Shown: positions 26,917 to 41,694 of the stretch, piece by piece | How the letters are laid out: each line of letters starts with the position of its first letter | How positions within the stretch are numbered: position 1 is the first letter of the stretch | NCBI GenBank assembly: GCA_015063385.1 | Contig: SVUG01000014.1 | Span: 1 to 46,402 of the forward strand | From: Oscillospiraceae bacterium | GTDB taxonomy: Bacteria > Bacillota > Clostridia > Oscillospirales > CAG-272 | Direction: 5' to 3' | Length of the DNA: 46,402 bases | The notes under the pieces: generated by a model | Databases searched by the model: none | Seen by the model: the letters and a program-made list of their open reading frames with translations, nothing else | What the model was told of the DNA's origin: nothing | Translations under genes and position numbers: made by a program

Positions 26917-27007
26917 TTATGCTATAGATGCCAATAAAATGGCTCTATATTATTTTATGGTATTCTTTAATTAAAGTTAATATAATTATACACTAAGGAG
27001 TATATAA

Positions 27008-27649
27008 ATGACCAAAATTTCTCCCTCCGTTCTCGCGGCCGACCTTTCAAATCTTGCCGCAGAGGTTAAGGATATTGAGCTTGCAGGTGCTGACATGGTG
27101 CATCTTGACGTCATGGATGGTGTTTTCGTGACTAACATCAGCTTCGGTTTACCCGTAATAGAGTCGCTGCGTTCGAAGACAAATATGATATTTGACGTGC
27201 ATCTTATGATAGTCAATCCTGAAAAATATGCCGAGAGATTTATCGAAGCAGGTGCAGATATCCTTACGTTTCATCTTGAAGCCTGCGAGGACTCGGCGTC
27301 GCTTCTTGATACGATACGTTCGCATGGCGCTATGGCGGCAGTTTCCATCAAGCCGGGAACGCCTATAGAGGACGTTTTTCCTTTGCTTGACAAATGTGAT
27401 ATGGTCCTTGTAATGACCGTTGAACCTGGTTATGGTGGTCAAAAACTGATACCTGAAACGCTCGAAAAGGTGAGAAAATTAAAGGCAGAAATAGAAAAGC
27501 GCGACCTTGCAGTCGAAATACAGGTTGACGGAGGTATTACAGCAGAGAACGCATCTCTCGCCATTGAGGCAGGCGCATCTATACTAGTTGCAGGTAGCTC
27601 CGTGTTTAAAAGCACTAACAGAAAACAAGCGATAGACGCTTTAAGATAA
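27008..27649 (+). CDS. rpe: Ribulose-phosphate 3-epimerase
   Basis: Rpe interconverts ribulose 5-phosphate and xylulose 5-phosphate in the pentose phosphate pathway. The 213-residue TIM barrel shows S-V-L-A-A-D near the start, H-L-D-V-M-D-G, D-V-H-L-M-I, V-E-P-G-Y-G-G-Q and V-D-G-G-I with A-G-S-S-V-F near the end; the metal-binding His and Asp residues are present. AAGGAG is the ribosome binding site, and a TATAAT (26981-26986) lies upstream with only a weak -35. It stands alone, not beside rsgA or the kinases it often accompanies. Confidence 0.95.
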   Translation: MTKISPSVLAADLSNLAAEVKDIELAGADMVHLDVMDGVFVTNISFGLPVIESLRSKTNMIFDVHLMIVNPEKYAERFIEAGADILTFHLEACEDSASLLDTIRSHGAMAAVSIKPGTPIEDVFPLLDKCDMVLVMTVEPGYGGQKLIPETLEKVRKLKAEIEKRDLAVEIQVDGGITAENASLAIEAGASILVAGSSVFKSTNRKQAIDALR

Positions 27650-27694
27650 ACGTTGAGGTTTTATCGAAGGATCTTCTTGCGTAGTTCGCATTAA

Positions 27695-27727
27695 ATAAAA
27701 AAACCACCAAATGGTGGTTTTTTTATT
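27695..27727. terminator. Bidirectional intrinsic terminator
   Basis: AAAAAACCACCA / TGGTGGTTTTTT with a 2-nt loop gives T runs in both directions. It ends rpe and the convergent 1184-residue lipoprotein gene. Confidence 0.9.
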
Positions 27728-27749
27728 TGCTTAATTAAGGGAGATAGGA

Positions 27750-30700
27750 TTAAGAGTCATTTTCAGCCCACTCATTATCCATATTGCTACTTTCTTTGGT
27801 AGGCACGGAGGTATTTCCTGCGCTTTCGTTTGCTGAAGAATCTCCGTTTGTCATACCGCTTATTGCAACGTCATCACCCTTGACAACTGTTTCACTGGTA
27901 TATTTTTTATCAGTTTTAGCAAATGAGATGTTGTCTAAGTATTGATTTCCTCTTATTTTATATGCAGAGAAACGTATTCCCAGCTGTGAAACCGCTGCGG
28001 ATGCATTGGCGATTATCTCGTCGTAAATACATACGTAATCTCCGTTTATATCACAAAGATAAATTTTTACTCTGGAATTGGCTGGTAACTCGGAGTCGTA
28101 ATAATACTCAAATTTCATAGAGTACCATTTGCCCGATTTTAAGGTGAAGTTTTCTATGACCTTTCCGTCATCCGTTTTGATTACCATTTCGCTCATTCCT
28201 CCGTGGCTTTCCGGAATCTCCTTTGCATCAAAGGCGAAGCCGAATAGCTTGCTTCCTGCTGAGTTTTGGAATTCAAGATTAAATTCGTTTGCTCTCCAAA
28301 GGAAGTCTATGGTATCGAAATAATAATCTAAGGAAACTTCATAGGTAGTGCCATCGGAACTTAGATTCGAGTCGTTGATATACACCGTACCGTTGCCTGA
28401 GTTATTATCGAGGTTCTGTGTAAATATGCGCAGAACCTTGTTGGAGGAATTAGTCGGATCTGCAGCTGCGTAGAATCTGACGCCGCCCTTGTTAGTTCCT
28501 ATTCCATACTTAGATTCAAGCTCAGATGTCCAGTTAACAGGGTCTATCGAAACAAATTTGCCTAAGTCGGCATCCTTATAGAATTGCTCTATGAAGAAAT
28601 CATCGTTTGAAATGATTCCGGTTGTAAAGTCATACACGGTTTTTTGGTCGTCCAATTCGGAATTGTCGGAATCCTTTGCGGTTTCCTCTACGTAAGGCTT
28701 GTTTTCTTTAGCTGTGTATACATTGTTGATATAGAACGCGGATGCGCCCATTCTGTAGTATGCCAGCTTGAAGGAGCTTATATCTCTGTCGTAGTAGGTA
28801 TCGTCCGTAGCGTTGTAGAGAGAAGAGTCGGACATTCCGGCGTATTCACCGTTCAAATAAAGCTTTATCTTAACGTCCAGAGCTTCATTTTCTGTGTAAT
28901 TCTTATAAACCTCAACGCGAAGATTGAACCATTCACCCGTAGGAATTCCGCCTACAACCTCACCGTTTTGAATACCGTCGCGTCCGGCATAAGAATCCGC
29001 AACGCGAAGGAAGGTCTTTCCGTATCTTTCGTAGGTGTAGAGGTTAAGCACTACGGAGTTCTGAGAGTTCGTGCCCTGACGTGCAGCAACTATCTGCATA
29101 ACGGGATTGCTACCGTCGGAGCCAGCAAAGTAGAGATCTACGTCAAGTATATAACAGTTGCCAACCGTTCCTAAATTAGTTATAAGACATTCGGTATTGC
29201 TTCCAACTGCGGCAACGGATTTGTAAGGATTATCGGGATAAACAAAATCCTCTGCATACAGTACCATATCATCAAAATTGGGATCAGGATTGGGTACTAT
29301 TGATGACATAAACCACTTATTATCGGTGTCGCCTACGTTGTTGATTACCGCTTCATCAGGCTTATATACTAAACCGTTCACTTCGTTGCCTTCAGAGGGG
29401 TTGTAGTTGTCGAAGGTGACAACCTCGGGTTCTACCTTTGACCCGGAATTTTTAATTATAGTACCTAGACCGGCTAAAACGTCGAGGAAAAACGTGGTAT
29501 CATATCTGCAATACAGAGCAGGGGCGTCAATTTCATAAACGGTAAACAGATTTTTGATTACCGTACTAACGGCTATTGCGGTTGAATTTACATCACTTTC
29601 AAGAGTTCCTTTTACTGCAACCAAAACGCCTTGCGAGGTGGCAGAGGTTGAGTCCTGATTCATCGAGAAGCCACCGTCTGTTCTTGCGAAAGCAATAAGT
29701 TTTTCGGTAGTCTTTTGGACAAGGTCGTACATGTTTTCACGCAAGAACACTTCAAATCTTGCGCGTCCCTCCGCTGAGCATGAGGGAAGAATATTTGCAA
29801 GACAAACCCATGGATTATAAACGTAGCACATAGTTTCAACATCATCGGATATGTCAAGCATTATTATTTCAAGTGTACTTTCAATAGATGCATCGGCTTT
29901 GGGGAAATTCTTTCCGAAGAATTCAGAAAGCTTCATAAGACCATTGATGGAATTATAAGAAACCTCGTTTTCCCAAAGTCCATTTTCTTTTTGATTTGTA
30001 CGAAGATAGTTTAGAAGGTAATCCCATCTTCCTGCCGACTTAATTTCTCCGGACGTGGAGCTGAGAGCGTTAGCAGCGCTATACGAATCTCCTTTGGCAA
30101 AAAGACCGTCAAGATAAATCTTGAAGCTTTCTTCAGATGCATATATAGGATTTGTAGAAGCGGTTAAAACAACCTTCGATGTGCTAACTGCTACTGATGA
30201 GCCAAGAGGGGAGGGAAGCAGGCTGTGTGAACTGCCAACTATACCTGAACCCTTGAAAGCACCGGTGGGACTATCGTATATAGGTACTACTCCGGTAGCA
30301 TTGAAAAATCTTACTGCCCAACCGTGATCTCTACCGCGGCGGGAAGAGCCTATAGACGTGCCCCACTGAGGATGGTAGAAGTATCCGTCCTCTGCCTGTA
30401 GACCTACTATAAACTCGCTTATCTGCGACAGAGTTTCTCCCGAGAGAAGATTAGCATAGCTTCCTCCCGCAGTATTGGCAAGGCCTGAATTTTGCAACAG
30501 CTCCAATGCCTGAACAGTCGATTCAATATCCGGCAAAAAGCCCTCCGTGTTTCTTGCCGATGCCGAATAATAAAATCCGCCTATATTAGGATCGTAAAGA
30601 TTAGCGAGCCAGATATACAGTTCCTCGGTATAAATGTTGTATAAATTACGCAATGCTGAAATGCCCTCAGCGGTCACTCTTTCAAAATTTGAAGAGTCGT

Positions 30701-31304
30701 TTAAAATCTCCTCAAACTCCTTATCTCGCTGTTCGTTTCTGCGCGCCGCTACGAAATCAATAGTGTTAAATCTTTCGTGCGTAATGACACCGGATGCGGA
30801 ATATTCCTTATCGGTAATATTATCTTGAATCCAATTTAAAGCAGCCATTCTGGCAATGGAATCGCTGTAAGCTATTGCCATAGAGCCATTTTCTGCGTAA
30901 ACCAAATATGCGCTGTCACCGTTTGATTCAAGCGAAAATAAATCCACTATCTTGTCAAATTTTTCATACGCAGTCATAGATATAGGGCGATTGAATTTTC
31001 CCACAACGATCTCGTGATCATTGGGAGTAGCACTCATATTTTCTGCTGTGATTATCTCAGGTGCTTTTCCTACAAGAAGATAAAGATGATAGCGGAAATC
31101 GCCGATATCAGTCGTTTCATCCTCACAGACAATATAATAATTATGTTCGGATGACCAAATAAGATCTTCGCTCTTTGGAGTCTCGACTTCGTTTTCGGAT
31201 TGTGAATTTTTAGGTATGAACAAACGGCACGAGCTAAATGCTGCAATCGAAATAAGCAGAGCCAAAACAAGAGTAAAAATCAAAAATAAAGTAGATTTTC
31301 TCAT
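27750..31304 (-). CDS. Large lipoprotein with a novel helical domain and two lectin-like domains
   Basis: The 1184-residue protein begins with a lipoprotein signal (F-S-S-C, Cys26). Residues about 55-165 resemble the small alpha/beta domain that precedes catalytic domains in some glycoside hydrolases (E-I-V-V-G-K, then A-A-L-N-W-I). Residues about 195-640 form a helix-rich domain shared with the next gene upstream, with striking motifs: I-G-G-F-Y-Y-S, E-G-F-L-P-D-I-E-S-T-V-Q-A-L, L-Q-A-E-D-G-Y-F-Y-H-P-Q-W-G and S-R-R-G-R-D. Two jelly-roll (concanavalin-like) domains follow at about 665-885 and 905-1135, then a Ser/Asn-rich tail. I place the helical domain in no known family; an alpha/alpha-barrel polysaccharide lyase or hydrolase is my guess. 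The ATGA overlap with its upstream neighbour implies coupled translation. Confidence 0.85.
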   Translation of the reverse strand: MRKSTLFLIFTLVLALLISIAAFSSCRLFIPKNSQSENEVETPKSEDLIWSSEHNYYIVCEDETTDIGDFRYHLYLLVGKAPEIITAENMSATPNDHEIVVGKFNRPISMTAYEKFDKIVDLFSLESNGDSAYLVYAENGSMAIAYSDSIARMAALNWIQDNITDKEYSASGVITHERFNTIDFVAARRNEQRDKEFEEILNDSSNFERVTAEGISALRNLYNIYTEELYIWLANLYDPNIGGFYYSASARNTEGFLPDIESTVQALELLQNSGLANTAGGSYANLLSGETLSQISEFIVGLQAEDGYFYHPQWGTSIGSSRRGRDHGWAVRFFNATGVVPIYDSPTGAFKGSGIVGSSHSLLPSPLGSSVAVSTSKVVLTASTNPIYASEESFKIYLDGLFAKGDSYSAANALSSTSGEIKSAGRWDYLLNYLRTNQKENGLWENEVSYNSINGLMKLSEFFGKNFPKADASIESTLEIIMLDISDDVETMCYVYNPWVCLANILPSCSAEGRARFEVFLRENMYDLVQKTTEKLIAFARTDGGFSMNQDSTSATSQGVLVAVKGTLESDVNSTAIAVSTVIKNLFTVYEIDAPALYCRYDTTFFLDVLAGLGTIIKNSGSKVEPEVVTFDNYNPSEGNEVNGLVYKPDEAVINNVGDTDNKWFMSSIVPNPDPNFDDMVLYAEDFVYPDNPYKSVAAVGSNTECLITNLGTVGNCYILDVDLYFAGSDGSNPVMQIVAARQGTNSQNSVVLNLYTYERYGKTFLRVADSYAGRDGIQNGEVVGGIPTGEWFNLRVEVYKNYTENEALDVKIKLYLNGEYAGMSDSSLYNATDDTYYDRDISSFKLAYYRMGASAFYINNVYTAKENKPYVEETAKDSDNSELDDQKTVYDFTTGIISNDDFFIEQFYKDADLGKFVSIDPVNWTSELESKYGIGTNKGGVRFYAAADPTNSSNKVLRIFTQNLDNNSGNGTVYINDSNLSSDGTTYEVSLDYYFDTIDFLWRANEFNLEFQNSAGSKLFGFAFDAKEIPESHGGMSEMVIKTDDGKVIENFTLKSGKWYSMKFEYYYDSELPANSRVKIYLCDINGDYVCIYDEIIANASAAVSQLGIRFSAYKIRGNQYLDNISFAKTDKKYTSETVVKGDDVAISGMTNGDSSANESAGNTSVPTKESSNMDNEWAENDS

Positions 31305-32596
31305 AGTACCTCCTTATGTTGTAGATTATCATTTTTTTGTGTGGGAAGTCTCATTATATCAAATACTAAGTCTGCATCCTGTTGAGTGAAAACAGGGACT
31401 ATAGGAATGCCAAAGGCTTTGAACATTTCACGAAGCGGTCCGTTGACCGAGCAACCGTTTCCGTTAATATCGCTTTCCCAAACGTTATCCAGTGAAACTC
31501 GCACACCCTGTGCATAAGCACAGCATTCGCCCGAAGATGCCGAGAAATATGCGAAGTTACCTTCGTTTGTTTGAGTCGATTTCATTTTTTTCGTGGTTGC
31601 GCGTATCATTTCAGGAGCACATTCGCGTAGTCTCGCACGCATCGCAGCCTTCTCCGATTCATTGAGATCACCGTGACTAAGTATAGCCGATACCGCTGCC
31701 CAGGGATTGTAAAACTCGCAGGCAAACTCTATCGGTTCGTTAGACGTTATAGCATGTACCGCGCTTTCAAATGCAGCCGTCGCGTGCTTGATTTTTGCGT
31801 TGAATACCGGATAGCTTATAGCTATCTTCATAAGTCCGTTGACCGAAGCGTAATTTATATCACGCTCCCATAGACCGTTGTCGGCGCGCTGAATAGAGTC
31901 AAGCCAATCGATAGTCGCGCATGCAAATTCATGGCCTGCATCTCGGATTTGTCCGCAAATAGAATTTATCAGATTTCCCATTGCATAGGATTTAGTACTG
32001 AAAGGGCGCTCGCTAATCCAATGTTTATATTTGTCTATATCCTGCAGGTAATCGGGCACCGCCGGCTTTGCTTTCCTTTCATACGAAAGGGGAAGGGGAT
32101 ATTTATATTTTCCTTTTAGGGCGATAAGCTGAGCTGCATTTCCCAAATCTCTGCCGCGTCTGCTTTCGGTTATATCCTTACCCCATTGCGGGTGATAGAA
32201 AAATCCGTCCTCGTCCTGTAGGTTGTATGCAAAATCATATATTTTTTCGCCAATGTCTCTCGGTATGCTTTGAATAGGTTCGCCTATTCCTTCAAGACCA
32301 CATTGCGTTTTAATAAATTTCAGCGCCTGCGCCGTTGATTCCAAATCAGGCAGAAAACCTTCGTTGTCTCTGGAAGTTTCGGAAAAATAAAATCCGCCTA
32401 TGTCAGAATCGTAAAGCCCCGCATACCATATAAGCATTCTCTCGTCGAAGAGGTTGTACATTTCACGAAGCTCGGCTATCGCTTCCTCGCCTATCACGTC
32501 GTGGAGTGCGGCGAAGCCTTCATTTCTTTTTTTCTCGCGAATATCGCGCAGCCGTGATATTCGCTCGGGGGTTGCTATAGAATCTATAATTTTCAT
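31301..32596 (-). CDS. Cytoplasmic paralogue of the lipoprotein's helical domain
   Basis: The 431 residues have no signal peptide and align over nearly their full length with residues about 180-640 of the adjacent lipoprotein: I-G-G-F-Y-F-S, E-G-F-L-P-D-L-E-S-T-A-Q-A-L, L-Q-D-E-D-G-F-F-Y-H-P-Q-W-G, S-R-R-G-R-D, and later N-G-L-W-E and Y-N-P-W. Conserved Glu, Asp, His, Trp and Arg in these blocks look like an active site. The pairing of an outside and an inside version suits stepwise breakdown of a polymer, first on the surface and then as imported oligomers. Oddly, no ribosome binding site precedes ATG 32596, and a strong terminator lies just upstream, so its expression is unclear. Confidence 0.8.
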   Translation of the reverse strand: MKIIDSIATPERISRLRDIREKKRNEGFAALHDVIGEEAIAELREMYNLFDERMLIWYAGLYDSDIGGFYFSETSRDNEGFLPDLESTAQALKFIKTQCGLEGIGEPIQSIPRDIGEKIYDFAYNLQDEDGFFYHPQWGKDITESRRGRDLGNAAQLIALKGKYKYPLPLSYERKAKPAVPDYLQDIDKYKHWISERPFSTKSYAMGNLINSICGQIRDAGHEFACATIDWLDSIQRADNGLWERDINYASVNGLMKIAISYPVFNAKIKHATAAFESAVHAITSNEPIEFACEFYNPWAAVSAILSHGDLNESEKAAMRARLRECAPEMIRATTKKMKSTQTNEGNFAYFSASSGECCAYAQGVRVSLDNVWESDINGNGCSVNGPLREMFKAFGIPIVPVFTQQDADLVFDIMRLPTQKNDNLQHKEVL

Positions 32597-32608
32597 TTGT
32601 TAAAATTG

Positions 32609-32623
32609 TGTCAGTTGCTGACA
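32609..32623. promoter_or_regulatory. Inverted repeat before the helical-domain paralogue
   Basis: TGTCAG and CTGACA arms (as read on the minus strand) are separated by 3 nt and end 13 nt before the ATG at 32596. It may be an operator or a translational hairpin. No canonical promoter is seen in the 42 bp between this gene and the terminator. Confidence 0.35.
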
Positions 32624-32637
32624 TTACTGGAGTTTCT

Positions 32638-32678
32638 TGAAAAATCGCGGCCTTCGATTTTGGGCGAAAGCCGCGATT
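32638..32678 (-). terminator. Strong intrinsic terminator after the 524-residue secreted protein
   Basis: On the minus strand a 14-bp stem (AATCGCGGCTTTCG / CGAAGGCCGCGATT, one G-T pair) with an 8-nt loop is followed by TTTTTC. Confidence 0.9.
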
Positions 32679-32719
32679 AAACGTTGGTTTAAGACTGTAA
32701 AACTAATATTATGACAATA

Positions 32720-34294
32720 TTATACACCGGGGTATTGAGGCATAGTATCGGTTTCATAGAAGTAAACGTTATCAAAGTACTGCGTGTTAGTATTGCTATA
32801 ACCGCCCGTGAAGCTGAGCTGGATATATTCAACAGCGGTGGAGTTGTTAGTACCGCTTGAAAGATCGGCTTGAGCAAACAAAGTAAAGGTAGTACCGCCG
32901 TTGGTGGAATAATAAATATAACGAACCGTGTTAATAGAGTCCCAAACTATTCTGAAGGTATACCAGGTATCTATATCGAAAGCATTGGTGTCTGCTGAAG
33001 TGTTGCCAAGAGCAAAGCTGTCTGTGTCAGTAGTATCGGGTCTGCAATAGAAATCAGCACCGGTTTTTGCGTCGCTTTCGTTATAAAGTGTTGCGCTAAA
33101 GAGCTTAGCATTAGTGTTAGTCGAATAGGTGACATCTACATATTGATCATATTCAAATACATATATACCGCCATTCTCTACCTTTTTGTCGAGAGCTATC
33201 TTCCAAGTGCTTGCAACAGAACTGCTGACTCTATTGGTTTGAACAGTCAGAACCTTGTTTGCATCACTTGTGGGATCTGTACCAATATAGAATTTAGGAC
33301 CTGTATAGCTTGAATACTGGGACATATCGTAACTTCCGGGGTTGACGTTACCGCCGTCAAGTATATTACTTGTGCTCGCGGTAGCACCGCTATAAATATT
33401 CATTGCAATACTAAAGTTGCTGTCATAAGGAATCTGACCGTCCTCAAAGTCGTAGGATGAAGACTCAGCCTCACCGAACACTGGAACTACCTGAACGGGC
33501 TCAGTAATCGAAGCGGTCTCACCAACAGCAAGCGTCTCGGTGTAACCGTCTGCTCTAACGAGAGCCCAAGATGCGACCGTTTCGCTGCCGGTGTATGCAG
33601 GAGTAACGCTAAGAGTCTCGCCCGCAGGAGCAAACGAGAAGCGAGAGCCGTTAATAGTAACGCCCTCGGTTTCGGTATATGCATATACCGACTCAGTAAC
33701 GAGAGGCTCGGGATTCTCGCTGTCGTAATTTTCGAGAACGACCTGTGCCTGCACGCCGTATGTAAGAAGGCTATTGTAGAGCTTCATTCTCTCAAAGTCC
33801 TTGCCGTCAACCTCGGTCATATCCTTGAAGCCCTCTCTGTAGAGCATAGTATAAAGATACTCAGCTACACTGTAATCGTGGGTATATTCGGGAGCGGTAT
33901 CACCGGTATAAGCCACAGCATATGCAACGCGGGAAAGGTCCTTGGCAGGTACGCCGGTAGTAACGAATACGGGATATCTGGCAATCTCGTTGCCGCCTTC
34001 ATCCTTTTGAATATAAAGGTTTTCTTCCTTCGTTGTGTCAAGGAGAGTTGCGGTTTTAATATTGGTGGGATCATCATTCCAATAATAATTTACCGTAACG
34101 GTATTTGCATCTGCAATTGGTACGTTAACTGCATAAGCAATAGCAACTCTGTCGCCGTAAACTATGTTTTGGGCTAAAATAGTCACTTCGCTCTCAGCCT
34201 CTGCTGCGGAAGCTGAGAATCCAACGGCAATGCCAAGAAGTGCCGCGGTTATCAGTGTAAGTACAACAATTTTTGTGAGTTTTTTTGCTTTCAT
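32720..34294 (-). CDS. Secreted protein with a C-terminal lectin-like (jelly-roll) domain
   Basis: The 524-residue protein has a Sec signal ending near A-S-A-A (about residue 32). Residues about 35-200 form a domain with Y-S-V-A-E-Y-L-Y-T-M-L-Y and L-L-T-Y-G-V-Q-A-Q, a pattern I associate with secreted proteins of gut Clostridia but cannot name. A beta-rich linker (200-285) follows, then a jelly-roll domain (about 288-520) opening Y-D-F-E-D-G and containing D-A-N-K-V-L-T-V and Y-F-D-N-V-Y-F. The same opening and N-K-V-L block occur in the 1184-residue lipoprotein and in the AraC fusion, tying the three genes together. No wall-anchoring motif is seen. The 42-residue peptide gene lies 60 bp upstream. 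Confidence 0.8.
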   Translation of the reverse strand: MKAKKLTKIVVLTLITAALLGIAVGFSASAAEAESEVTILAQNIVYGDRVAIAYAVNVPIADANTVTVNYYWNDDPTNIKTATLLDTTKEENLYIQKDEGGNEIARYPVFVTTGVPAKDLSRVAYAVAYTGDTAPEYTHDYSVAEYLYTMLYREGFKDMTEVDGKDFERMKLYNSLLTYGVQAQVVLENYDSENPEPLVTESVYAYTETEGVTINGSRFSFAPAGETLSVTPAYTGSETVASWALVRADGYTETLAVGETASITEPVQVVPVFGEAESSSYDFEDGQIPYDSNFSIAMNIYSGATASTSNILDGGNVNPGSYDMSQYSSYTGPKFYIGTDPTSDANKVLTVQTNRVSSSVASTWKIALDKKVENGGIYVFEYDQYVDVTYSTNTNAKLFSATLYNESDAKTGADFYCRPDTTDTDSFALGNTSADTNAFDIDTWYTFRIVWDSINTVRYIYYSTNGGTTFTLFAQADLSSGTNNSTAVEYIQLSFTGGYSNTNTQYFDNVYFYETDTMPQYPGV

Positions 34295-34354
34295 TTTAAT
34301 GTTATCCTTTCATAAATTAAAATTAAGTTTGTTGAAATAATAAAATTAAGCGTG

Positions 34355-34483
34355 CTAATTTTCGTCCCAACCACCTTCGCCGTCCATATTTTCACCCGAC
34401 GTAGTAATGATATCGGTTTCATCAAAAGCAACTATTTCGACATCTGGACGAACGTAGTCTTTTTTTGCTTTTTTAATATTCAT
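34355..34483 (-). CDS. 42-residue acidic peptide, leading gene of the secreted-protein operon
   Basis: The frame runs from ATG 34483 to TAG 34355 behind a strong AAAGGAGC ribosome binding site and a well-formed promoter. The peptide has a basic start (M-N-I-K-K-A-K-K), then Y-V-R-P-D-V-E-I-V-A-F-D, D-I-I-T-T-S-G, and an acidic Gly-rich tail ending G-W-D-E-N. The pattern Y-x-x-P-x-x-E-I-x-x-F-x-x-x-D-I-I-T-T-S resembles very short proteins I have seen in gut Clostridia, whose function is unknown to me. There is no signal peptide. It could be a leader-and-core peptide or a regulatory small protein; this is inference. Confidence 0.75.
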   Translation of the reverse strand: MNIKKAKKDYVRPDVEIVAFDETDIITTSGENMDGEGGWDEN

Positions 34484-34514
34484 GACTGCTCCTTTCAACG
34501 CTTTTTTATTTACA

Positions 34515-34543
34515 TTTATATTGTAGCACAGTTAAAATACCAA
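34515..34543 (-). promoter_or_regulatory. Promoter of the 42-residue peptide and secreted protein
   Basis: On the minus strand, TTGGTA (34538-34543), 17-bp spacer, TATAAA (34515-34520). A 7-bp inverted repeat AACGCTT / AAGCGTT (about 34497 and 34542) flanks it. Confidence 0.65.
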
Positions 34544-34586
34544 GCGTTAGGCTAAAATTTATGAATTTTTAGGCAAAAACGCAGTT

Positions 34587-34635
34587 TATTCATTTAATCT
34601 ATTGACAAATAAATATTGATTTGCTTAAATGAATA
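34587..34635 (+). promoter_or_regulatory. Promoter of the AraC fusion inside an 11-bp inverted repeat
   Basis: TTGACA at 34602-34607, 17-bp spacer, TTAAAT at 34625-34630. Perfect 11-bp arms TATTCATTTAA (34587-34597) and TTAAATGAATA (34625-34635) bracket it, the right arm covering the -10 box. This is a good candidate operator for self-regulation. Confidence 0.6.
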
Positions 34636-34680
34636 TGGTTTTGATTTGTATCAAAAAATGTATGGAGATAATGATGTGAG

Positions 34681-36210
34681 ATGAAAGAAGATAATATATT
34701 TGTTGCTGTGATGATGGGAACTAACTCACAGGATGGGGTGGGTAAAAATATGACGGGAACACATTTTGATGTTGTGCCCGATCCTGCTAATCCTCAAAAC
34801 AAAGTTCTGGAAATTAAAACTAAAAACACTAATTACAAAGCTGTTAGCTCTACGGTTATCGGAGCAGAGATTGAAAGCAAGAGCGCTACGACGTGCGAGT
34901 TGGAAACAAAAATTTTCTTCAGTGAAATGCCTTGGGTATTCAGTCCGTCTTATTTTGATTTGGTTTTTCATAGTGAGTCGGGTGCTAAACGATTATCAAT
35001 TCAATTTGAGGCGCTGGAATACGGTGCTGACACTTCTAACAGAACGTTGGTTTTAAAGAAGGAAACGGGTGAACCGATAAATCAAATTTCTTTGGTTGCG
35101 GGGAAGTGGTACCGTATTAAATTCGAGTACTATCCCGCAAACGTTAACCTTGGAGAATCAAGGTTAAAGATATATGTTGGTGAAGATAATACACCTCCGA
35201 CTCTTGTGGCGGACGTTGATTGTGTTGGGAAAAACGGCAGTATTTCCAAGGCAGTATTTCTTCATCACGCTTTTAAAATCAAGGGACAGATGTATCTTGA
35301 CGATATTTCGTTTGCTATTACCGAAAAAAGATATACCGAAGATGGTGATTATCAAGAAATTCCAAAATCAATAAGACGAGTATATGATTTTGAAGACGGT
35401 ATTCCTTCGAGCAAGAAATTTAATATACAAATGAAATTAAATAAGGATGAAAAAATCTTCTCCTTTGATCCGACAATAACCAGCACATCTGCCTCCTTGC
35501 TGAATTCGGGAGAATATTACAATATAATTCATATACTTGATGGAAAATGCGAGTTGAAATCTTCTGAAGAACGTTATGAGCTGTCCGGTGGACATATTGC
35601 CGTTATCACGCCCGGATGCTCACTTGCACTCACAACTGATAGTGAATATAAGCTTTTGTTAATTTCGGGGTCTTTTGAGGATCTGTTTTCTCTTGAGGGA
35701 ATATCGGTTATTCAGGATAATATTTATGGAGAAGGTGGAAAGATTGCACAACTTATAAGCTATAACAGATTCAGTGATCCTAAATATCTAAGTGCTCTTT
35801 GCAACTCATACATCGTATTTATTCTTATGAATATGGACAAACCACCTCTCCAAAATACGACCGCCGTTGTATATAACATAATTGCAGAAATGGAGCATCG
35901 CTTTAGTGCACCTGACGTGACGGTTGGAAAAATTCTTGTGGAAAGCGGATACGCCGAAAACTATATACGTGCCAAATTCGGTGAGGTCACTGGAATGAGT
36001 CCGAACAAGTATTTCACCATGGTCAGAATGAAACACGCAAAGGCTCTGCTTTCACAGTATGGTGATACGATGAGTGTTGGACAAATCGCTGAAAAGTGCG
36101 GAATAATGGATTTAAACGCGTTCTCCAGAACATTCAGAAAGTACTACGGAATTTCTCCGACAAAATACAAGAATAAAAACAATAACAGTACAAAACACTT
36201 GCATTTGTAA
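34681..36210 (+). CDS. AraC-type regulator fused to a lectin-like domain
   Basis: Residues about 1-215 are a jelly-roll domain clearly related to the last domain of the 1184-residue lipoprotein (D-P-A-N-P-Q-N-K-V-L-E-I, G-K-W-Y-R-I-K-F-E-Y-Y, Y-L-D-D-I-S-F-A). A second jelly-roll appears to begin at about 237 (V-Y-D-F-E-D-G-I-P) but breaks off after some 25 residues. A cupin-like regulator segment (I-L-D-G-K-C-E-L, G-G-H-I-A-V-I-T-P-G) and a complete AraC DNA-binding domain (about 405-500, ending N-A-F-S-R-T-F-R-K-Y-Y-G-I-S-P-T-K-Y) follow. No signal peptide or membrane segment is present, so it should be cytoplasmic. GGAG lies 13 nt upstream of ATG 34681, with a tiny ATG-ATG-TGA between. Likely regulator of the locus. 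Confidence 0.85.
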   Translation: MKEDNIFVAVMMGTNSQDGVGKNMTGTHFDVVPDPANPQNKVLEIKTKNTNYKAVSSTVIGAEIESKSATTCELETKIFFSEMPWVFSPSYFDLVFHSESGAKRLSIQFEALEYGADTSNRTLVLKKETGEPINQISLVAGKWYRIKFEYYPANVNLGESRLKIYVGEDNTPPTLVADVDCVGKNGSISKAVFLHHAFKIKGQMYLDDISFAITEKRYTEDGDYQEIPKSIRRVYDFEDGIPSSKKFNIQMKLNKDEKIFSFDPTITSTSASLLNSGEYYNIIHILDGKCELKSSEERYELSGGHIAVITPGCSLALTTDSEYKLLLISGSFEDLFSLEGISVIQDNIYGEGGKIAQLISYNRFSDPKYLSALCNSYIVFILMNMDKPPLQNTTAVVYNIIAEMEHRFSAPDVTVGKILVESGYAENYIRAKFGEVTGMSPNKYFTMVRMKHAKALLSQYGDTMSVGQIAEKCGIMDLNAFSRTFRKYYGISPTKYKNKNNNSTKHLHL

Positions 36211-36230
36211 ATAAAAGTAGTCATATAGAT

Positions 36231-36257
36231 AAAAAGGCTTCGTATGAAGCCTTTTTT
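36231..36257 (+). terminator. Intrinsic terminator of the AraC fusion gene
   Basis: AAAAAGGCTTC / GAAGCCTTTTT stem with a 4-nt loop and a T run; it overlaps the end of the pseudogene on the other strand. Confidence 0.9.
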
Positions 36258-36480
36258 ATCTTTTAACATCAGGAGATTTGATTATTGGAATCTTTCCTTT
36301 CGGTATCGAAGCGGAGGCATCCGTAGGCCTTTTTGAATTTTCATACGTCACGCCGTTGATATAGTAAATGCATTCCCCTCTTGCCATATAGTAAATTTCG
36401 CAAAGATCGAGATAATGATGTTAATACATAGGCGTGGTGCTGCTTTTGACGTTGTTGTATCTGAATATTTTTGTGTCCAT
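36256..36480 (-). pseudogene. Remnant of an AraC-family regulator (N-terminal cupin part)
   Basis: Reading from ATG 36480 (behind GGGGGAAAA), the frame gives 19 residues, an in-frame TAA (36421-36423), and then 54 more residues to TAA 36256-36258. The part after the first stop reads H-H-Y-L-D-L-C-E-I-Y-Y-M-A-R-G-E-C-I-Y-Y, then I-N-G-V-T-Y-E, which matches the sugar-binding cupin of AraC regulators. It breaks off there and the DNA-binding half is missing. This is a decayed gene: one nonsense codon plus a large 3' deletion. It lies between the AraC fusion and uxaB and may mark the original regulator of the Uxa operon. Confidence 0.65.
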
Positions 36481-36524
36481 AATTTTCCCCCGAAGCTTAT
36501 TGTTCAATTAGTTTAACATAAAAT

Positions 36525-36607
36525 ATCAAAAAAATTAAGATTTTTGGCAAAAAACGGCAGTAAAAATCAAAAAAATTAAGGTTAACCAACTTAATATAAT
36601 ATATAAT
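36525..36607 (+). promoter_or_regulatory. Control region of the uxaBAC operon
   Basis: Two exact 15-bp direct repeats ATCAAAAAAATTAAG (36525-36539 and 36566-36580) lie 41 bp apart, about four helical turns. The second abuts the palindrome GGTTAACC (36580-36587). Two TATAAT boxes follow (36595-36600, 36602-36607), without a good -35 at 17 bp, as expected for an activator-dependent promoter. AraC-type activators bind direct repeats, so the fusion protein is a candidate. Confidence 0.55.
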
Positions 36608-36643
36608 GAATATGGAAATAATTTTTTTGTGAGGATGTTTCTT

Positions 36644-37933
36644 ATGAATTTTGACAAAAAGCAGAGAACAGAAAGAGTAATTCAGTTTGGCGAGGGCGGA
36701 TTTCTTCGCGGATTCGTAGATTGGATGCTCCAGAAGGTGAACGAAAAATCTGATTTTGACGGCAGCGTTGTAGTGGTTCAGCCCATCGAGCAGGGTATGT
36801 GCGATATGCTCACTGCACAAAACTGCGTTTACACTCATCTTATCAGAGGTGTTGAGGGAGTTGACACTACTGTTGTTGACGTAATTTCAAGATGCGTCAA
36901 GCCCTATGAGGATTTTGATGCATATCTTGCACTTGCAGAGCAACCCGAGATGCGTTTCGTTGTTTCTAATACAACAGAGTCGGGCATAGTTTTCTCGGCT
37001 GACGATAAAATTACCGATGCTCCTCCCAAAACTTTTCCTGCTAAGGTGACGCTTCTTCTTAAAAAGCGCTTTGACCTTGGCCTTAACGGCTTTATATTCC
37101 TTCCTTGCGAGCTTATTGACAGAAACGGTGACAATCTCAGAAAGTGTATTCTTCAGTATGCTGACCTTTGGAATCTTGGCGAAGACTTCAAGGCGTGGGT
37201 AGAGGAGAAGAACGTCTTTACCAATACTCTCGTTGACCGCATTAACACGGGCTATCCAAGAGGTGAGGACCTTGGTCTTGGATATGAGGACAATCTTGTT
37301 AACACCTCCGAGTTCTTCCATCTTTGGGTTATTGAAACTGAATACGACCTTGATAGTGAGCTTCCTTTCTCAAAGGCCGACCTTAACGTAATTATCACTC
37401 CCGACAAGCTTGAGATGTACCGTACAAGAAAGGTAAGAATTCTTAACGGCGCACACACCTCGCTCGTTCCTTACGCACTTCTCTCTGGTCTTGATACCGT
37501 TAAGAGCTGCATTGACGATCCTACAATGAACGAGCATCTTCGTAAGTGCATATTTGACGAGATAATTCCTACTCTTGATCTTCCAGAGGATGAGCTTCTC
37601 AGCTACGCAAACAGCGTTGTTGAAAGATTCAGCAATCCCTATATCAAGCATTATCTTTCTTCTATAGCACTCAATTCGGTTTCCAAGTTCAAGGTTAGAG
37701 TTTTGCCCTCGATTCTTGAATACATAAAGAGATATAACAAGATGCCCGAAACGCTTCTTTTTGCTTTCGCAAAGCTTCTTGATTTCTACAAAACCGATAT
37801 GACTAACGACGATCCCGACGTTGTAGCATTTATGAAGTCGCATAACACCGCCGAGGTTCTTGCAAATGCATCGCTCTGGGGCCAGGACCTCTCACACCTT
37901 GCAGACGAGGTAGATAAATATGTTAATAAATAA
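36644..37933 (+). CDS. uxaB: Tagaturonate reductase (altronate oxidoreductase)
   Basis: UxaB reduces D-tagaturonate to D-altronate with NADH. The 429-residue protein belongs to the polyol-specific long-chain dehydrogenases: Q-F-G-E-G-G-F-L-R-G-F at the nucleotide site, S-N-T-T-E-S-G-I, L-P-C-E-L-I-x-x-N-G and K-V-R-I-L-N-G-A-H-T (catalytic Lys region). The start is ATG 36644, 7 nt after GTGAGGAT; the upstream GTG at 36629 is part of that binding site. The next gene overlaps by 14 bp. Fructuronate reductase (UxuB) is related, but the pairing with UxaA favours the galacturonate branch. Confidence 0.92.
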   Translation: MNFDKKQRTERVIQFGEGGFLRGFVDWMLQKVNEKSDFDGSVVVVQPIEQGMCDMLTAQNCVYTHLIRGVEGVDTTVVDVISRCVKPYEDFDAYLALAEQPEMRFVVSNTTESGIVFSADDKITDAPPKTFPAKVTLLLKKRFDLGLNGFIFLPCELIDRNGDNLRKCILQYADLWNLGEDFKAWVEEKNVFTNTLVDRINTGYPRGEDLGLGYEDNLVNTSEFFHLWVIETEYDLDSELPFSKADLNVIITPDKLEMYRTRKVRILNGAHTSLVPYALLSGLDTVKSCIDDPTMNEHLRKCIFDEIIPTLDLPEDELLSYANSVVERFSNPYIKHYLSSIALNSVSKFKVRVLPSILEYIKRYNKMPETLLFAFAKLLDFYKTDMTNDDPDVVAFMKSHNTAEVLANASLWGQDLSHLADEVDKYVNK

Positions 37934-39290
37934 GCTTGATAACGTTGATATAAATCTTGCTGACGGTCACAAGTATGCACTTCGTGATATAAAGTGCGGT
38001 GAGGATATAATCAAGTACGGAAATCCTATAGGACACGCGGTAGCTGACATAAAAAAGGGCGAGCACGTACATACTCATAACGTAAAGACTAATCTCTCGG
38101 GAAACCTTGAGTATTCCTATGAGCCAAAGTTTTACGATACACCCGCAGTTCCTACCGACCGTACGTTTATGGGCTACGTGCGTGAGAACGGCGACGTCGG
38201 TATCAGAAACGAGATATGGATTGTCAATACGGTTGGCTGCGTTAATAAAATTTCGCAGAAGCTCGCAGAGCTTACGGGTGCTAGATATTTTCCGCATCCC
38301 TTCGGTTGCTCACAGCTTGGCGATGACCAGACTATTACGCAGAAGGTGCTTCGCGGAATGGTAAATCACCCTAATGCCGCGGGCGTTCTCGTGCTCGGAC
38401 TTGGTTGTGAGAATAACAATATCGACGTCTTTAAAAAGGTGCTTGGCGAGTATAATCCCAACAGGGTAAAGTTCCTCAACACCCAGGATGCTGACGATGA
38501 TATTGCGGCTGGCGTTGAGCTTATCAACGAGCTCAAGGAGTATGCATCAAAATTCGAGCGCACTCCCGTGCCGGTATCCAGGCTTCGTATAGGACTTAAG
38601 TGCGGAGGAAGCGACGGATACAGCGGAATTACTGCAAATCCTCTTGTTGGCAGACTTTCCGACAAGGTTATTTCTCACGGTGGCAGCTGCGTGCTTACCG
38701 AAGTTCCTGAGATGTTCGGTGCAGAGCATCTTCTTATGCAGAGGTGCGAGAGCCCCGAGGTGTTTGAGAAAACCGTTAAGCTTATTAACGATTTCAAGGA
38801 CTATTACACAAGGCACAACCAGGTAATATATGAGAATCCCTCGCCCGGAAACAAGAAGGGCGGTATCACAACTCTTGAAGAAAAGTCGCTTGGCTGCGTG
38901 CAGAAGGGCGGTCTTTCCAAGGTTGTTGACGTTCTTGATTACGGTGACGTGCTTACGAAGAACGGTCTTTCGCTTCTTAACGGCCCGGGAAATGACATAG
39001 TTGCTATAACCAACCTTATGGCAGCAGGTGTTCATATGATACTCTTTACGACCGGAAGAGGTACTCCTGTTGGCGCTCCTGTGCCTACCGTAAAGATTGC
39101 AACCAACCATTCGCTTGCAGAGCGTAAGTCGGGATGGATAGATTTTGACGCATCTCCTACTCTTGACGGTAATCCCTTGACTGACGAGCTCTTTGATTTT
39201 GTCGTCAGCGTAGCCGATGGCAAGGAAACCAAGAACGAAATCAATAATTATAGAGAAATTTCAATATTTAAGGACGGTGTAACGCTATGA
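37920..39290 (+). CDS. uxaA: Altronate dehydratase
   Basis: UxaA removes water from D-altronate to give 2-keto-3-deoxygluconate. The 456 residues join the small N-terminal SAF-like domain (G-H-K-Y-A-L-R-D-I, then G-E-H-V-H-T-H-N-V) to the large catalytic domain (G-Y-V-R-E-N-G-D-V-G-I-R-N, P-F-G-C-S-Q, G-L-G-C-E-N, L-K-C-G-G-S-D-G-Y-S-G, and F-T-T-G-R-G-T-P near the end). Cysteines in these blocks fit the iron-dependent family. It overlaps uxaB and shares ATGA with uxaC, so the three are translationally coupled. Confidence 0.94.
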   Translation: MLINKLDNVDINLADGHKYALRDIKCGEDIIKYGNPIGHAVADIKKGEHVHTHNVKTNLSGNLEYSYEPKFYDTPAVPTDRTFMGYVRENGDVGIRNEIWIVNTVGCVNKISQKLAELTGARYFPHPFGCSQLGDDQTITQKVLRGMVNHPNAAGVLVLGLGCENNNIDVFKKVLGEYNPNRVKFLNTQDADDDIAAGVELINELKEYASKFERTPVPVSRLRIGLKCGGSDGYSGITANPLVGRLSDKVISHGGSCVLTEVPEMFGAEHLLMQRCESPEVFEKTVKLINDFKDYYTRHNQVIYENPSPGNKKGGITTLEEKSLGCVQKGGLSKVVDVLDYGDVLTKNGLSLLNGPGNDIVAITNLMAAGVHMILFTTGRGTPVGAPVPTVKIATNHSLAERKSGWIDFDASPTLDGNPLTDELFDFVVSVADGKETKNEINNYREISIFKDGVTL

Positions 39291-40645
39291 GTTTTATTAA
39301 CGATAACTTTATGCTAAAAAATGAGCCTGCGAAAAAGCTTTATTCAATGGTAAAGGACCTTCCCATAATCGACTATCATTGCCATCTTTCACCGAAGCAA
39401 ATAGCAGAGAACTATCAGTTCAGAAACGCTTTTGACCTTTTCCTTGGCGGTGACCACTACAAGTGGCGTCAGATAAGAACCAACGGTGTGCCTGAGGAGT
39501 ATATCACGGGTGATATGGACGAGTATGAGAAGTTTAAGATGTTTGCAAAAACTCTTCCGCTTCTTATCGGCAACCCCCTCTATCATTGGACACATCTTGA
39601 ACTAAAGAGATATTTTGATATTGACGAGCCTCTTAACGAGGAGTCCTGCGAGAGAATCTGGAATAAGTGCAACGAGCTTCTTGCAAAGCCTGAGTACAGA
39701 GCAAAAGAGCTTATCAAACGCTCTAACGTTGAGATTATCTGTACCACCGATGATCCCATTGATACTCTTGAGTATCACGCGCAGCTTAAGGGCTTTTCTA
39801 CCAAGGTTCTTCCGACCTTCCGTCCCGACAAGGCTGTGGAAATCGGCAAGGAGACCTTTGTGCCTTATATTGAGGCTGTCGGTGTTAAGTCCTACGACGA
39901 ACTCGTAGCTTGGATAAAGGCGCGTATTGCATACTTCAACGATTATGGCTGCCGTCTTTCCGACCACGCGCTTGAGTACGTTCCCTTTGCGGAGGGTGAC
40001 GCAAAGGCTGCCTTTGATAAGCGTATGGCAGGCGGTGAGCTTACAAAGATGGAAATTGATGCATTTAAGACTGCAATGCTCAAGGCTTGTGCAGAGGAGT
40101 ACGTTAAGTTTGACTGGGCTATGCAGCTTCACATTGGCGCGCTTCGTAATAACAATAAGAAGATGTATGAAAAGCTTGGCCCTGATACGGGATATGATTC
40201 AATCAACGACCTTTGCATCGCAGAGGATCTCGGTGCATTTATGAATCATCTTGAGGTTGCAAATTGCCTTCCCAAGACCATTCTTTACACCCTTAACCCC
40301 AAGGATAACTACGTGCTTGGCACTATGCTCGGCTGCTTCCAGTCTGCTCCCACGCAGGGCAAGATTCAGTTCGGTTCAGGCTGGTGGTTCAACGACCAGA
40401 GAGACGGTATGGAAGGACAGATGCAGGCACTTGCAAATCTTGGTATGCTTGCTAACTTCGTTGGCATGCTTACTGACAGTCGCTCGTTCGTTTCATATCC
40501 TCGCCATGAGTACTTCAGACGCATACTTTGCAACCTCATCGGTAAGTGGGTTGCAGAGGGCGAATACCCCGAGGATTACAAGACTCTCGAGAAAATTGTC
40601 ACCGGTATTTGCTACTACAACGCAAAGAGATATTTTAATTTTTGA
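39287..40645 (+). CDS. uxaC: Uronate isomerase (glucuronate/galacturonate isomerase)
   Basis: UxaC isomerises D-galacturonate to D-tagaturonate, and D-glucuronate to D-fructuronate. The amidohydrolase-type barrel is shown by I-I-D-Y-H-C-H-L-S-P near residue 30, L-F-L-G-G-D-H-Y-K-W-R, C-T-T-D-D-P-I-D-T-L, F-R-P-D-K, Q-L-H-I-G-A and the C-terminal D-S-R-S-F-V-S-Y-P-R-H-E-Y-F-R-R. 452 residues is close to the usual 465-470. As last gene of the operon it starts within the uxaA stop. A terminator follows. Confidence 0.96.
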   Translation: MSFINDNFMLKNEPAKKLYSMVKDLPIIDYHCHLSPKQIAENYQFRNAFDLFLGGDHYKWRQIRTNGVPEEYITGDMDEYEKFKMFAKTLPLLIGNPLYHWTHLELKRYFDIDEPLNEESCERIWNKCNELLAKPEYRAKELIKRSNVEIICTTDDPIDTLEYHAQLKGFSTKVLPTFRPDKAVEIGKETFVPYIEAVGVKSYDELVAWIKARIAYFNDYGCRLSDHALEYVPFAEGDAKAAFDKRMAGGELTKMEIDAFKTAMLKACAEEYVKFDWAMQLHIGALRNNNKKMYEKLGPDTGYDSINDLCIAEDLGAFMNHLEVANCLPKTILYTLNPKDNYVLGTMLGCFQSAPTQGKIQFGSGWWFNDQRDGMEGQMQALANLGMLANFVGMLTDSRSFVSYPRHEYFRRILCNLIGKWVAEGEYPEDYKTLEKIVTGICYYNAKRYFNF

Positions 40646-40665
40646 TAGATATTTTTAGGCAGAAT

Positions 40666-40696
40666 AAATCCCCGAGAAAAATCTCGGGGATTTTTA
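40666..40696 (+). terminator. Intrinsic terminator of the uxa operon
   Basis: A 12-bp stem AAATCCCCGAGA / TCTCGGGGATTT with a 4-nt loop and T run. Confidence 0.92.
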
Positions 40697-40715
40697 AATA
40701 AAAGCAAAAAAACGC

Positions 40716-40744
40716 TTGACAAAACGAAAAGAGTGTGTTATAAT
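40716..40744 (+). promoter_or_regulatory. Promoter of tRNA-Leu
   Basis: Perfect TTGACA (40716-40721), 17-bp spacer, perfect TATAAT (40739-40744) preceded by TGT. This is the strongest promoter in the window. Confidence 0.9.
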
Positions 40745-40755
40745 ACCATTCGCAT

Positions 40756-40839
40756 GCGGGAGTGGCGGAATCGGCAGACGCGCACGTTTGAGGGGCGTGT
40801 ATCTTTGATGTACGGGTTCAAGTCCCGTTTCCCGCACCA
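40756..40839 (+). tRNA. tRNA-Leu (anticodon GAG)
   Basis: The 84-nt gene folds as a cloverleaf: acceptor GCGGGAG with TTCCCGC, a D-arm with GG, anticodon stem CACGT / GCGTG enclosing TTGAGGG (anticodon GAG), a long variable arm typical of Leu, and a T-arm with GGTTCAAGTCC. The terminal CCA is encoded. It reads CUC and CUU codons. Confidence 0.93.
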
Positions 40840-40843
40840 ACAG

Positions 40844-40877
40844 AAAAGTGGCTAACCAACAGGTTGGCCACTTTTTT
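40844..40877 (+). terminator. Intrinsic terminator of tRNA-Leu
   Basis: A 14-bp stem AAAAGTGGCTAACC / GGTTGGCCACTTTT (one T-G pair) with a 4-nt loop is followed by a T run. Confidence 0.9.
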
Positions 40878-40974
40878 GTCGGGGGAAACGTGACAGACCT
40901 CAGGCAAGCCTTCGGTCTTCAGGCTAAAAACTCTTATTAAGAGTTTTCTAAACGCCTGACATTTCCCGCACCAA
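40878..40974 (+). other. Structured element ending in a duplicate of the tRNA-Leu 3' end
   Basis: TTTCCCGCACCAA, the last bases of the tRNA plus one (40828-40840), occurs again at 40962-40974. The 95 bp between can fold as a branched structure: GGGAAA (about 40882) with TTTCCC, TCAGGC (about 40899) with GCCTGA (40954), and two inner hairpins, one with arms AAAACTCTT / AAGAGTTTT (about 40927-40947). It could be a degraded tRNA copy, an attachment-site duplication, or a small structured RNA. Confidence 0.5.
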
Positions 40975-40981
40975 GAAAAAA

Positions 40982-41049
40982 GGTTGACCAAAGGTCGGCC
41001 TCTTTTTGTTTGGTATGGGGACGGGGTTTGAAGGGGAGCGGAAGTGAAT
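40982..41049 (+). repeat. Dispersed intergenic repeat, copy 2
   Basis: Matches 249-316 at 66 of 68 positions, with the same leading hairpin and T5 tract. An 8-bp inverted repeat AACAGTCC / GGACTGTT (41050-41057, 41061-41068) follows at once and is not present at copy 1. Confidence 0.85.
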
Positions 41050-41178
41050 AACAGTCCGGTGGACTGTTAGAGCCGCGACTGACCGACGAGCGTAGTTCGC
41101 GAGGAGAATCAAGAACACAAGGAAAATTCAGTTAAAAAACGTGAAAACAAAAAAAGTTAAAAAAATTGCAAAAACCTA

Positions 41179-41207
41179 TTGATTTTATAGAAAATATGTG
41201 ATATAAT
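41179..41207 (+). promoter_or_regulatory. Promoter of rpsT
   Basis: TTGATT at 41179-41184, 17-bp spacer, TATAAT at 41202-41207 preceded by TGA (extended -10). Confidence 0.85.
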
Positions 41208-41213
41208 ACATCG

Positions 41214-41580: not shown

Positions 41581-41590
41581 GCCAAGCAAG

Positions 41591-41656: not shown

Positions 41657-41694
41657 AATATAAGATAAAAGCACTTCCTGAAAGGAGGAAAAAT

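Follow-up and report, generated by a model that had tools for sequence, protein, structure and literature searches.

The stretch analysed here, referred to below as the window, comprises the 46,402 nucleotides at positions 1 to 46,402 of contig SVUG01000014.1 of an Oscillospiraceae bacterium (assembly GCA_015063385.1), in which the hexuronate operon uxaB-uxaA-uxaC adjoins genes encoding a secreted lipoprotein, its cytosolic paralogue, a second secreted protein, a short peptide and a divergent AraC-type regulator. An earlier note on this DNA had joined all of these genes in one pectin-like degradation system; every open reading frame (ORF) it named exists, as checked with the ORF listing and translations of the window, and its observation is confirmed, its interpretation being partly supported. 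As argued below, the genes to the left of uxaB form a cassette of their own, real and conserved, combining an enzyme-like protein family with an unusual regulator, and for which the function put forward here is a proposal. The 1184-aa and 431-aa proteins are paralogues, as the earlier note had it, and the one domain they share is named HEL here; HELsec designates the long protein, HELcyt the short one, i.e. the domain alone, sec524 the second secreted protein, and AraC-lec the regulator. The features are as follows:

27608..36521, no strand assigned: the cassette, missing at the equivalent place in the congener G021
27697..27726, no strand assigned: a hairpin recognised by eye in the interval between HELsec and rpe, with T/A runs; not among the sites listed by the terminator scan
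27750..31304, minus strand: HELsec, 1184-aa secreted lipoprotein with an N-terminal part of about 170 aa, the HEL domain (toroid-like) and beta-sandwich domains in the tail
27888..28517, minus strand: beta-sandwich at residues about 930-1139 of HELsec, a homologue of the domain at the N-terminus of AraC-lec
29469..30794, minus strand: HEL domain (toroid-like) of HELsec, residues 171-612, by match to the hidden Markov model (HMM) of the family
31301..32596, minus strand: HELcyt, 431 aa, HEL domain (toroid-like) only, without signal peptide; its ORF overlaps that of HELsec by 4 bp
32720..34294, minus strand: sec524, 524-aa secreted protein with a conserved N-terminal 250 aa and a C-terminal beta-sandwich
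34355..34483, minus strand: gene of a 42-aa peptide, with an AGGAG-type ribosome-binding site, heading the leftward operon
34681..36210, plus strand: AraC-lec, 509-aa AraC regulator with an N-terminal beta-sandwich, divergent from the operon
34681..35415, plus strand: beta-sandwich domain of AraC-lec, residues 1-245
36231..36256, plus strand: terminator-like hairpin between AraC-lec and uxaB
36525..36581, plus strand: two 16-bp direct repeats upstream of uxaB, belonging to the neighbour operon and not to the cassette
36629..40645, plus strand: uxaB-uxaA-uxaC operon, ordinary neighbour outside the cassette (uxaB 36629-37933, uxaA 37920-39290, uxaC 39287-40645, all on the plus strand)

Regarding the boundary between the two units, G021, a genome with no HEL match, keeps the order mraZ-ispDF-rpe-uxaB-uxaA-uxaC followed by tRNA-Leu(gag), without the genes of the cassette. 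Its contig C52 aligns by blastn to positions 26268-27607 of the window and then to 36522-40840, the two aligned blocks being separated in G021 by 874 bp with a different ORF; since the alignment stops at 27607 and resumes at 36522, 27608-36521 stands apart as a cassette that was either acquired in this genome or lost from G021. None of the 15 uxaC loci fetched from congeners has HEL and, conversely, a search at E 1e-8 through the ORFs of the HEL loci L037-L125 gave no uxaA, uxaB or uxaC, so that the survey of homologues for uxa places uxa beside HEL only in this window. The gene uxaC itself occurs in 32 of the 36 congeners searched, namely nine of nine with HEL and 23 of 27 without (the match in G029 being fragmentary), and a plain AraC gene is divergent from uxaB in five of the seven fetched loci holding uxaB, uxaA and uxaC. 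In the window, the hairpin at 36231..36256 has the longest stem (11 pairs) of 12 terminator-like sites in the region, against 6.8 expected from shuffles. The starts of the two repeats upstream of uxaB lie 41 bp apart, a step that is the same in G021 and in G030, where each repeat has two mismatches, and a single one was found in G013; with up to two mismatches allowed, the repeat recurs nowhere else in the window, the cassette included. Given the G021 site, the distribution of uxaC, the hairpin and the shared repeats, uxaBAC is independent of the cassette, with conserved upstream repeats of its own, and is an ordinary hexuronate operon. While the uxa neighbourhood had suggested pectin, the genome comparison shows that this neighbourhood is not conserved. 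The reading of uxaBAC as a galacturonate operon did stand, all three families being found in one operon by Pfam/NCBIfam searches of the Uxa proteins (tagaturonate reductase, 2.1e-158; altronate dehydratase domains, 4.1e-100; glucuronate isomerase, 3e-196). Besides, the uxaB repeats with their fixed 41-bp step (window 36525-36581; L133; L127) are a likely operator of the hexuronate genes in the genus. An Rfam search over 27000-42000 returned tRNA only and no other RNA element, and promoter-like sites were no more frequent than in shuffles (23 found, 22.7 expected).

It is the cassette, rather than the uxa neighbourhood, that constitutes the conserved unit, since the same order, that is AraC-lec divergent from peptide-sec524-HELcyt-HELsec, is found at five of five AraC-lec loci in four genomes, with flanks that differ in each. 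These five loci are the window, L037 in the same genome, L058, L059 and L060, and they hold all the AraC-lec genes found in the window and L037-L125. In L037, two short ORFs (L037:5259-5880, minus strand), XRE-type-like by eye, lie between AraC-lec and the peptide gene and have no counterpart among the genes listed for the other four cassettes. A mobile-element reading was rejected, a search of 72,556 plasmid and 50,697 phage records having returned nothing for the HELcyt of the window.

HEL is patchily distributed: of the 59 genomes searched, nine have it, and all nine belong to the genus of the window, for which 36 genomes were searched. The genome of the window has 19 matches, taken to represent 11 genes, and G013 and G030, both relatives with genomes of about 2 Mb, have as many as 43 and 44, respectively. 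When genomes were drawn evenly from the order, four of 394 had HEL: the genome of the window itself, a second congener, a member of a different genus in the family, and one whose match is weak. A single peptide-pattern scan of genome contigs gave the best 80 of 98 relatives, in 69 loci that are all from metagenome bins titled Clostridia, Oscillospiraceae or Ruminococcus; the named sources of bins with HEL relatives are roe deer, water deer, goat, sheep and yak, and the relatives of this bacterium come mostly from ruminant guts. Loci L043-L051, L053 and L054 were excluded, as duplicates of genomes in L057-L125, from the cluster counts, the tree and pair analysis, the counts of location signals and conserved positions, and the count of sec524 neighbourhoods. 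The calling of ORFs favours the longest frame and missed one HEL gene or more (L057), which makes absence counts based on ORFs slightly lenient.

The two types of HEL, defined by the position at which the domain starts, differ in their location signals: 66 of 67 proteins of the short type are without an N-terminal hydrophobic segment, whereas 70 of the 79 rows of the long type have one, 38 of them with a lipobox (one long-type protein, from L056, being counted twice among the 79), and several of the exceptions look like wrong start calls. Short and long types form mostly separate branches, with 20 changes on the tree vs. a mean of 48.7 in 500 shuffles. Adjacent cytosolic/secreted pairs number 39 in the tree analysis and 40 in the count of sec524 neighbourhoods, and the divergence of the short domains parallels that of their long partners (r 0.75 over 38 of the 39 pairs, a value reached in none of 2000 permutations). 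For this test, 174 ORFs with HEL were brought to 147 by dropping partial, very long and identical domains as well as duplicate loci. This co-divergence shows joint inheritance and not physical interaction, because duplication of whole cassettes would also give it.

The AraC-type regulator recognised in the earlier note is borne out by Pfam matches of its C-terminal helix-turn-helix (HTH) region to HTH_18 (3.9e-18) and HTH_AraC (1.1e-13), to which an N-terminal beta-sandwich domain, missed at the time, has to be added. Residues 15-221 of AraC-lec match the beta-sandwich of HELsec at residues 930-1138 (whole-protein E 1.5e-30; domain E 1.7e-49 when an HMM of five regulators is used), i.e. the same kind of domain occurs on a DNA-binding regulator and on a secreted protein. 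No signal or membrane segment was found in the five AraC-lec proteins, for which the highest 19-residue hydropathy mean is 1.27. AraC-lec is proposed here to sense an imported ligand via this domain. The best enzyme matches of the five regulator domains are the HELsec of the cassette clade, well ahead of other HELsec. Of these, the HELsec of the window is the best for all five, so that the enzyme of the regulator's own locus ranks first in only one case of five, and the regulator domain of L037 has no match at 1e-3 to the HELsec of L037. In L059, AraC-lec carries an in-frame stop inside the DNA-binding domain, which reflects either inactivation or an assembly error; in this gene of G013 (L059:6473-7813, minus strand), the rest of the DNA-binding domain is readable downstream in the same frame.

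Whether the beta-sandwich of AraC-lec could be a fused remnant or a dimerisation part, rather than a sensor, has to be weighed on these same data: the stop in L059 and the single own-locus best match would fit such a view, as would the smaller size of most AraC regulators close to HEL (a cluster of 30 has a median length of 289 aa), but the domain is kept at full length, with 33-36% identity to the window copy in three other loci and also in L060, and AraC-lec with the full-length domain always stands in the same cassette order, which makes a remnant or dimerisation part somewhat unlikely. Within the literature searched, no AraC regulator with a carbohydrate-binding or LamG domain of this kind is described. 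In RsgI anti-sigma factors, the sensor is a domain of the carbohydrate-binding module (CBM) type. According to the available excerpts on Clostridium thermocellum, RsgI senses polysaccharides and is a membrane protein acting through proteolysis (PMC12203970); the polysaccharide-sensing regulator proposed here would resemble it (PMC12203970; PMC4711584), the difference being that AraC-lec lacks a membrane segment and combines the domain with a DNA-binding regulator in one protein.

As for the HEL domain itself, neither Pfam nor NCBIfam matches the 431-aa HELcyt at E 1, nothing in the PDB matches it with an E below 0.66, and PDB sequence searches with one HEL member and with a 129-row profile returned nothing convincing; HEL is thus an uncharacterised family left blank by Pfam, NCBIfam and PDB sequence searches. 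Across 100 HEL members, the Prenyltrans alpha/alpha toroid family PF00432 matches 10 (best E 6.9e-5), and the other families matching more than one do so for 5, 5 and 2 members, with best E of 0.04, 0.19 and 0.037, respectively. Aligned with 14 Prenyltrans sequences by hhalign, HEL gives P 8.4e-5 and a probability of 60 over 101 columns, and appears weakly similar to the prenyltransferase-type alpha/alpha toroid. Relationships to known carbohydrate-active families with a helical toroid did not hold by the same comparison, be it with glycoside hydrolase (GH) family GH88 (P 0.0049 with 4 sequences; 0.41 and 0.40 for weaker GH88 sets), the heparinase N-domain (0.022, 11 sequences) or polysaccharide lyase (PL) family PL10 (0.77, three sequences), and neither PL10 nor GH88/105 nor the heparinase II/III type is among the best 25 of the 47 families matching the 100 members.

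At 32 positions, many of them charged or aromatic, at least 85% of the sequences of each HEL type (59 and 80 sequences, respectively) have the conserved residue; these positions include W57, Y70, D84, W138 and W243, as well as E86, Y134, H135, R146, R149, D150, K257, N297, E374 and D376. No Cys is found among the invariant or nearly invariant columns of the HEL alignments A2/A3. Known toroid members have the thioester Cys of the TED, or Cys as zinc ligand. Since no Cys is conserved, HEL would have neither of these. In other words, HEL is like the Prenyltrans toroid (PF00432, with the terpene cyclases and the complement TED) by a weak but repeated profile similarity, and unlike it by the absence of conserved Cys, by its other conserved residues and by its carbohydrate gene context.

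Such a fold need not imply catalysis, and HEL proteins could be binding or scaffold proteins, the surface form capturing glycans and the cytosolic form holding imported oligosaccharides for other enzymes. Toroid relatives do include non-enzymatic folds, TED_complement matching one of the 100 HEL members and complement C4 being the weak top PDB profile match of HEL (E 0.43), and the tails of HELsec, which have weak Laminin_G_3 and lyase-type matches, resemble binding domains of the beta-sandwich kind. Yet the ten residues from E86 to D376 listed last above are kept at 85-100% in both compartments, and because charged and aromatic positions are so kept, a catalytic cleft fits better than a scaffold; besides, a cytosolic scaffold adjoining a surface gene in 40 pairs is hard to explain, and a purely binding role is on balance unlikely.

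The gene context gives some indications about the substrate. Out of 275 candidates lying at most 3 kb from HEL genes, the 105 closest ones (at distances up to about 430 bp) made up the nearest-neighbour set, for which the matches listed (best 25 of 88 families) included GH20 (3), GH92 (2), GH4 (2) and GH43 (2). For the distal set, made up of 105 ORFs of these same loci at distances above 5 kb from HEL, the matches listed (best 25 of 152 families) included GH77 (2), and this set also holds at least a GH2 (L067) and a GH39 (L063), because of which the enrichment of glycosidases next to HEL is just suggestive. Chosen examples in HEL loci are GH20C, GH2, GH43, GH39, GH4, GH36 and GH123. Beside L037, a GH43 protein has two Beta-glucanase entries as top PDB matches (6eug, 6euf), followed by several galactan 1,3-beta-galactosidases and exo-beta-1,3-galactanases, and it has homologues in L058 and L063. 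Both L058 and L060 have a GH2 protein closest to the beta-galacturonidase 6ncw (5.7e-98 for the L060 protein); other copies lie on the contig of L059/L067 and, in the genome of the window, beside the HEL locus L039. According to the available part of one source, an NxK motif in loop 8 marks GH2 hexuronidases (PMC12243196); all four GH2 proteins examined have NxK near the C-terminus, one of them being aligned to 6ncw residue by residue, and the cluster has a fifth member, from L098 (26% identical), outside these four. In each of the four genomes with the cassette, a HEL gene has a GH2 with the NxK of hexuronidases at a distance of about 8 kb or less. In L059, proteins of 672 and 768 aa beside HEL cassettes (L059:4033-6051 and 17492-19798, minus strand) have no meaningful Pfam, NCBIfam or PDB match, the Pfam search for the former being done via its L067 copy.

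A GH43_24 exo-beta-1,3-galactanase and GH2 enzymes are described in the arabinogalactan-protein loci of Bacteroides plebeius, as far as the available excerpt goes (PMC8406133). The AraC-lec loci resemble them by GH43 and GH2, with the differences that GH43 and GH2 are in related loci only, that a GH43_24 assignment is not implied here, and that the excerpt mentions no HEL (PMC8406133). Because a galactanase-like GH43 and a GH2 hexuronidase occur in related loci, a uronate-bearing, arabinogalactan-like plant glycan is favoured over pectin and would be the likeliest substrate of the cassette, for this clade. HEL might alternatively act on host or microbial glycoconjugates (e.g. N- or O-glycans), each paralogue on its own glycan and this cassette being one of them; GH20C, GH92, GH123 and GH36 in other HEL loci speak for this, but the exo-enzymes linked to the AraC-lec loci are the galactanase-like GH43 and the GH2 hexuronidase, yet with a GH20C-type gene in L058 too, and such a target seems distinctly improbable. 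Least tenable is the pectin-like system of the earlier note, in which the unlabelled enzymes would feed the adjoining Uxa enzymes: the adjacency of uxa in the window, the GH2 hexuronidases near related loci and UxuA elsewhere in the genome can be quoted for it, but the cassette-free site of G021, the lack of any other uxa-HEL neighbourhood in the loci surveyed, the own repeats of uxaB, the absence by Pfam of PL (PL1/9/10), GH28 and GH105 from the cassette and other locus proteins, as it had itself reported, and the galactanase-like GH43 in relatives make it very unlikely. What stands of that note is a plausible carbohydrate-linked new family, without uxa as part of its system, and a uronate connection weakly kept via the GH2 hexuronidases near HEL genes and not via the adjoining uxa. 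Three GH88-family matches lie elsewhere in the genome, outside the locus, and the presence of UxuA makes glucuronate use possible.

Taken together, the locus is read here, tentatively and at a little under an even chance, as a self-contained glycan-use cassette, with HEL enzymes outside and inside the cell and a regulator sharing a domain with the enzyme, separate from the adjoining uxaBAC. HELsec on the cell surface would bind the polymer via its beta-sandwich domains and cleave it by means of its toroid-like domain, which would belong to an undescribed family of catalytic domains, with sec524 as a putative second surface binding protein. Oligosaccharides would enter through a transporter encoded outside the cassette, to be cut further inside the cell by HELcyt with the same active site. 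AraC-lec would sense these oligosaccharides in the cytosol, through a beta-sandwich of the kind found on the enzyme, and switch on the leftward operon; any released hexuronate could reach the Uxa/Uxu enzymes. What the sequences show is which genes are present and in what order, their copies, the location signals, the homologies and the cassette-free site of G021; catalysis, sensing, substrate, import and the part played by the peptide are inferred. Polysaccharide utilisation loci are a general notion in Gram-positive bacteria, and the cassette is like them by its AraC regulator, surface lipoprotein, cytosolic partner and, in relatives, adjacent glycosidases, and unlike them by having surface and cytosolic members of one family adjoining and, as the earlier note had seen, no transporter.

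This glycan-use reading is weakened by the absence of a dedicated transporter among the cassette ORFs, of a GH2 or GH43 beside the cassette in the window itself and of a shared operator in the five cassette promoters, where the best 16-mer has 12 summed mismatches vs. 13-17 in 12 shuffles. It is also weakened by the hhalign probability of just 60 over 101 columns for the toroid relation, a weak similarity, and by HEL having no CAZy family, catalysis being a proposal; by the GH77, GH2 and GH39 of the distal set, and by neighbours elsewhere (GH20, GH92, GH123) that point to other glycans; by the pair co-divergence, which would also follow from whole-cassette duplication; and, on the side of the regulator, by the ranking of own-locus enzymes, the L037 domain and the L059 stop described above. 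In its boldest form, HEL would found a glycan-cleaving family on a terpenoid-cyclase/TED-like toroid, with matched surface and cytosolic twins and a regulator reading the product with a copied binding domain, a combination that is rather doubtful; if true, one kind of ligand pocket would serve capture outside and gene control inside. Within the literature searched, no toroid or barrel enzyme matching HEL is described. The family raises two questions, namely whether a prenyltransferase-like toroid can be a carbohydrate enzyme, and whether a regulator can use the enzyme's kind of binding domain as a sensor.

The 42-aa ORF is no chance ORF and belongs to a family of peptides of about 45 aa, for which an HMM was built from nine seed sequences and which is conserved upstream of sec524-type genes. 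Over 29 aligned members, one Tyr, one Asp and one Ser are invariant, a C-terminal Trp is present in at least 90%, and a D-I-I-T-T-S stretch is found; eight members tested gave no Pfam or NCBIfam match. In eight genomes, 37 of 52 sec524-type N-termini have a peptide at most 320 bp upstream on the same strand and 15 have none, the 37 including three of three sec524-type genes in genomes without HEL, that is one after a peptide in each of G015, G028 and G033. A sec524-type gene lies within 2.5 kb of 32 of the 40 HEL pairs; none is present in the 15 congener uxaC loci, and the peptide has no match at E 0.01 in 266 kb of uxa loci. That the peptide would be part of HEL loci alone was rejected, as the family matches in 27 of the 59 genomes, some matches being weak or partial, including genomes without HEL such as G028 and G012, with up to 14 matches per genome; the peptide family is wider than this cassette system.

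Elsewhere in the window, positions 42931-46245 (plus strand) encode a 1104-aa protein with two tandem 5'-nucleotidase-like halves, each after a short Cys/His stretch, and 5_nucleotid_C was matched twice by Pfam. Upstream, a cell-wall and division cluster (13294-25155, minus strand) comprises mraZ, mraW, murE, murF, mraY, ftsW, murG and ftsZ, named by eye, and 20774-25171, within the region of this cluster, is collinear with G021.

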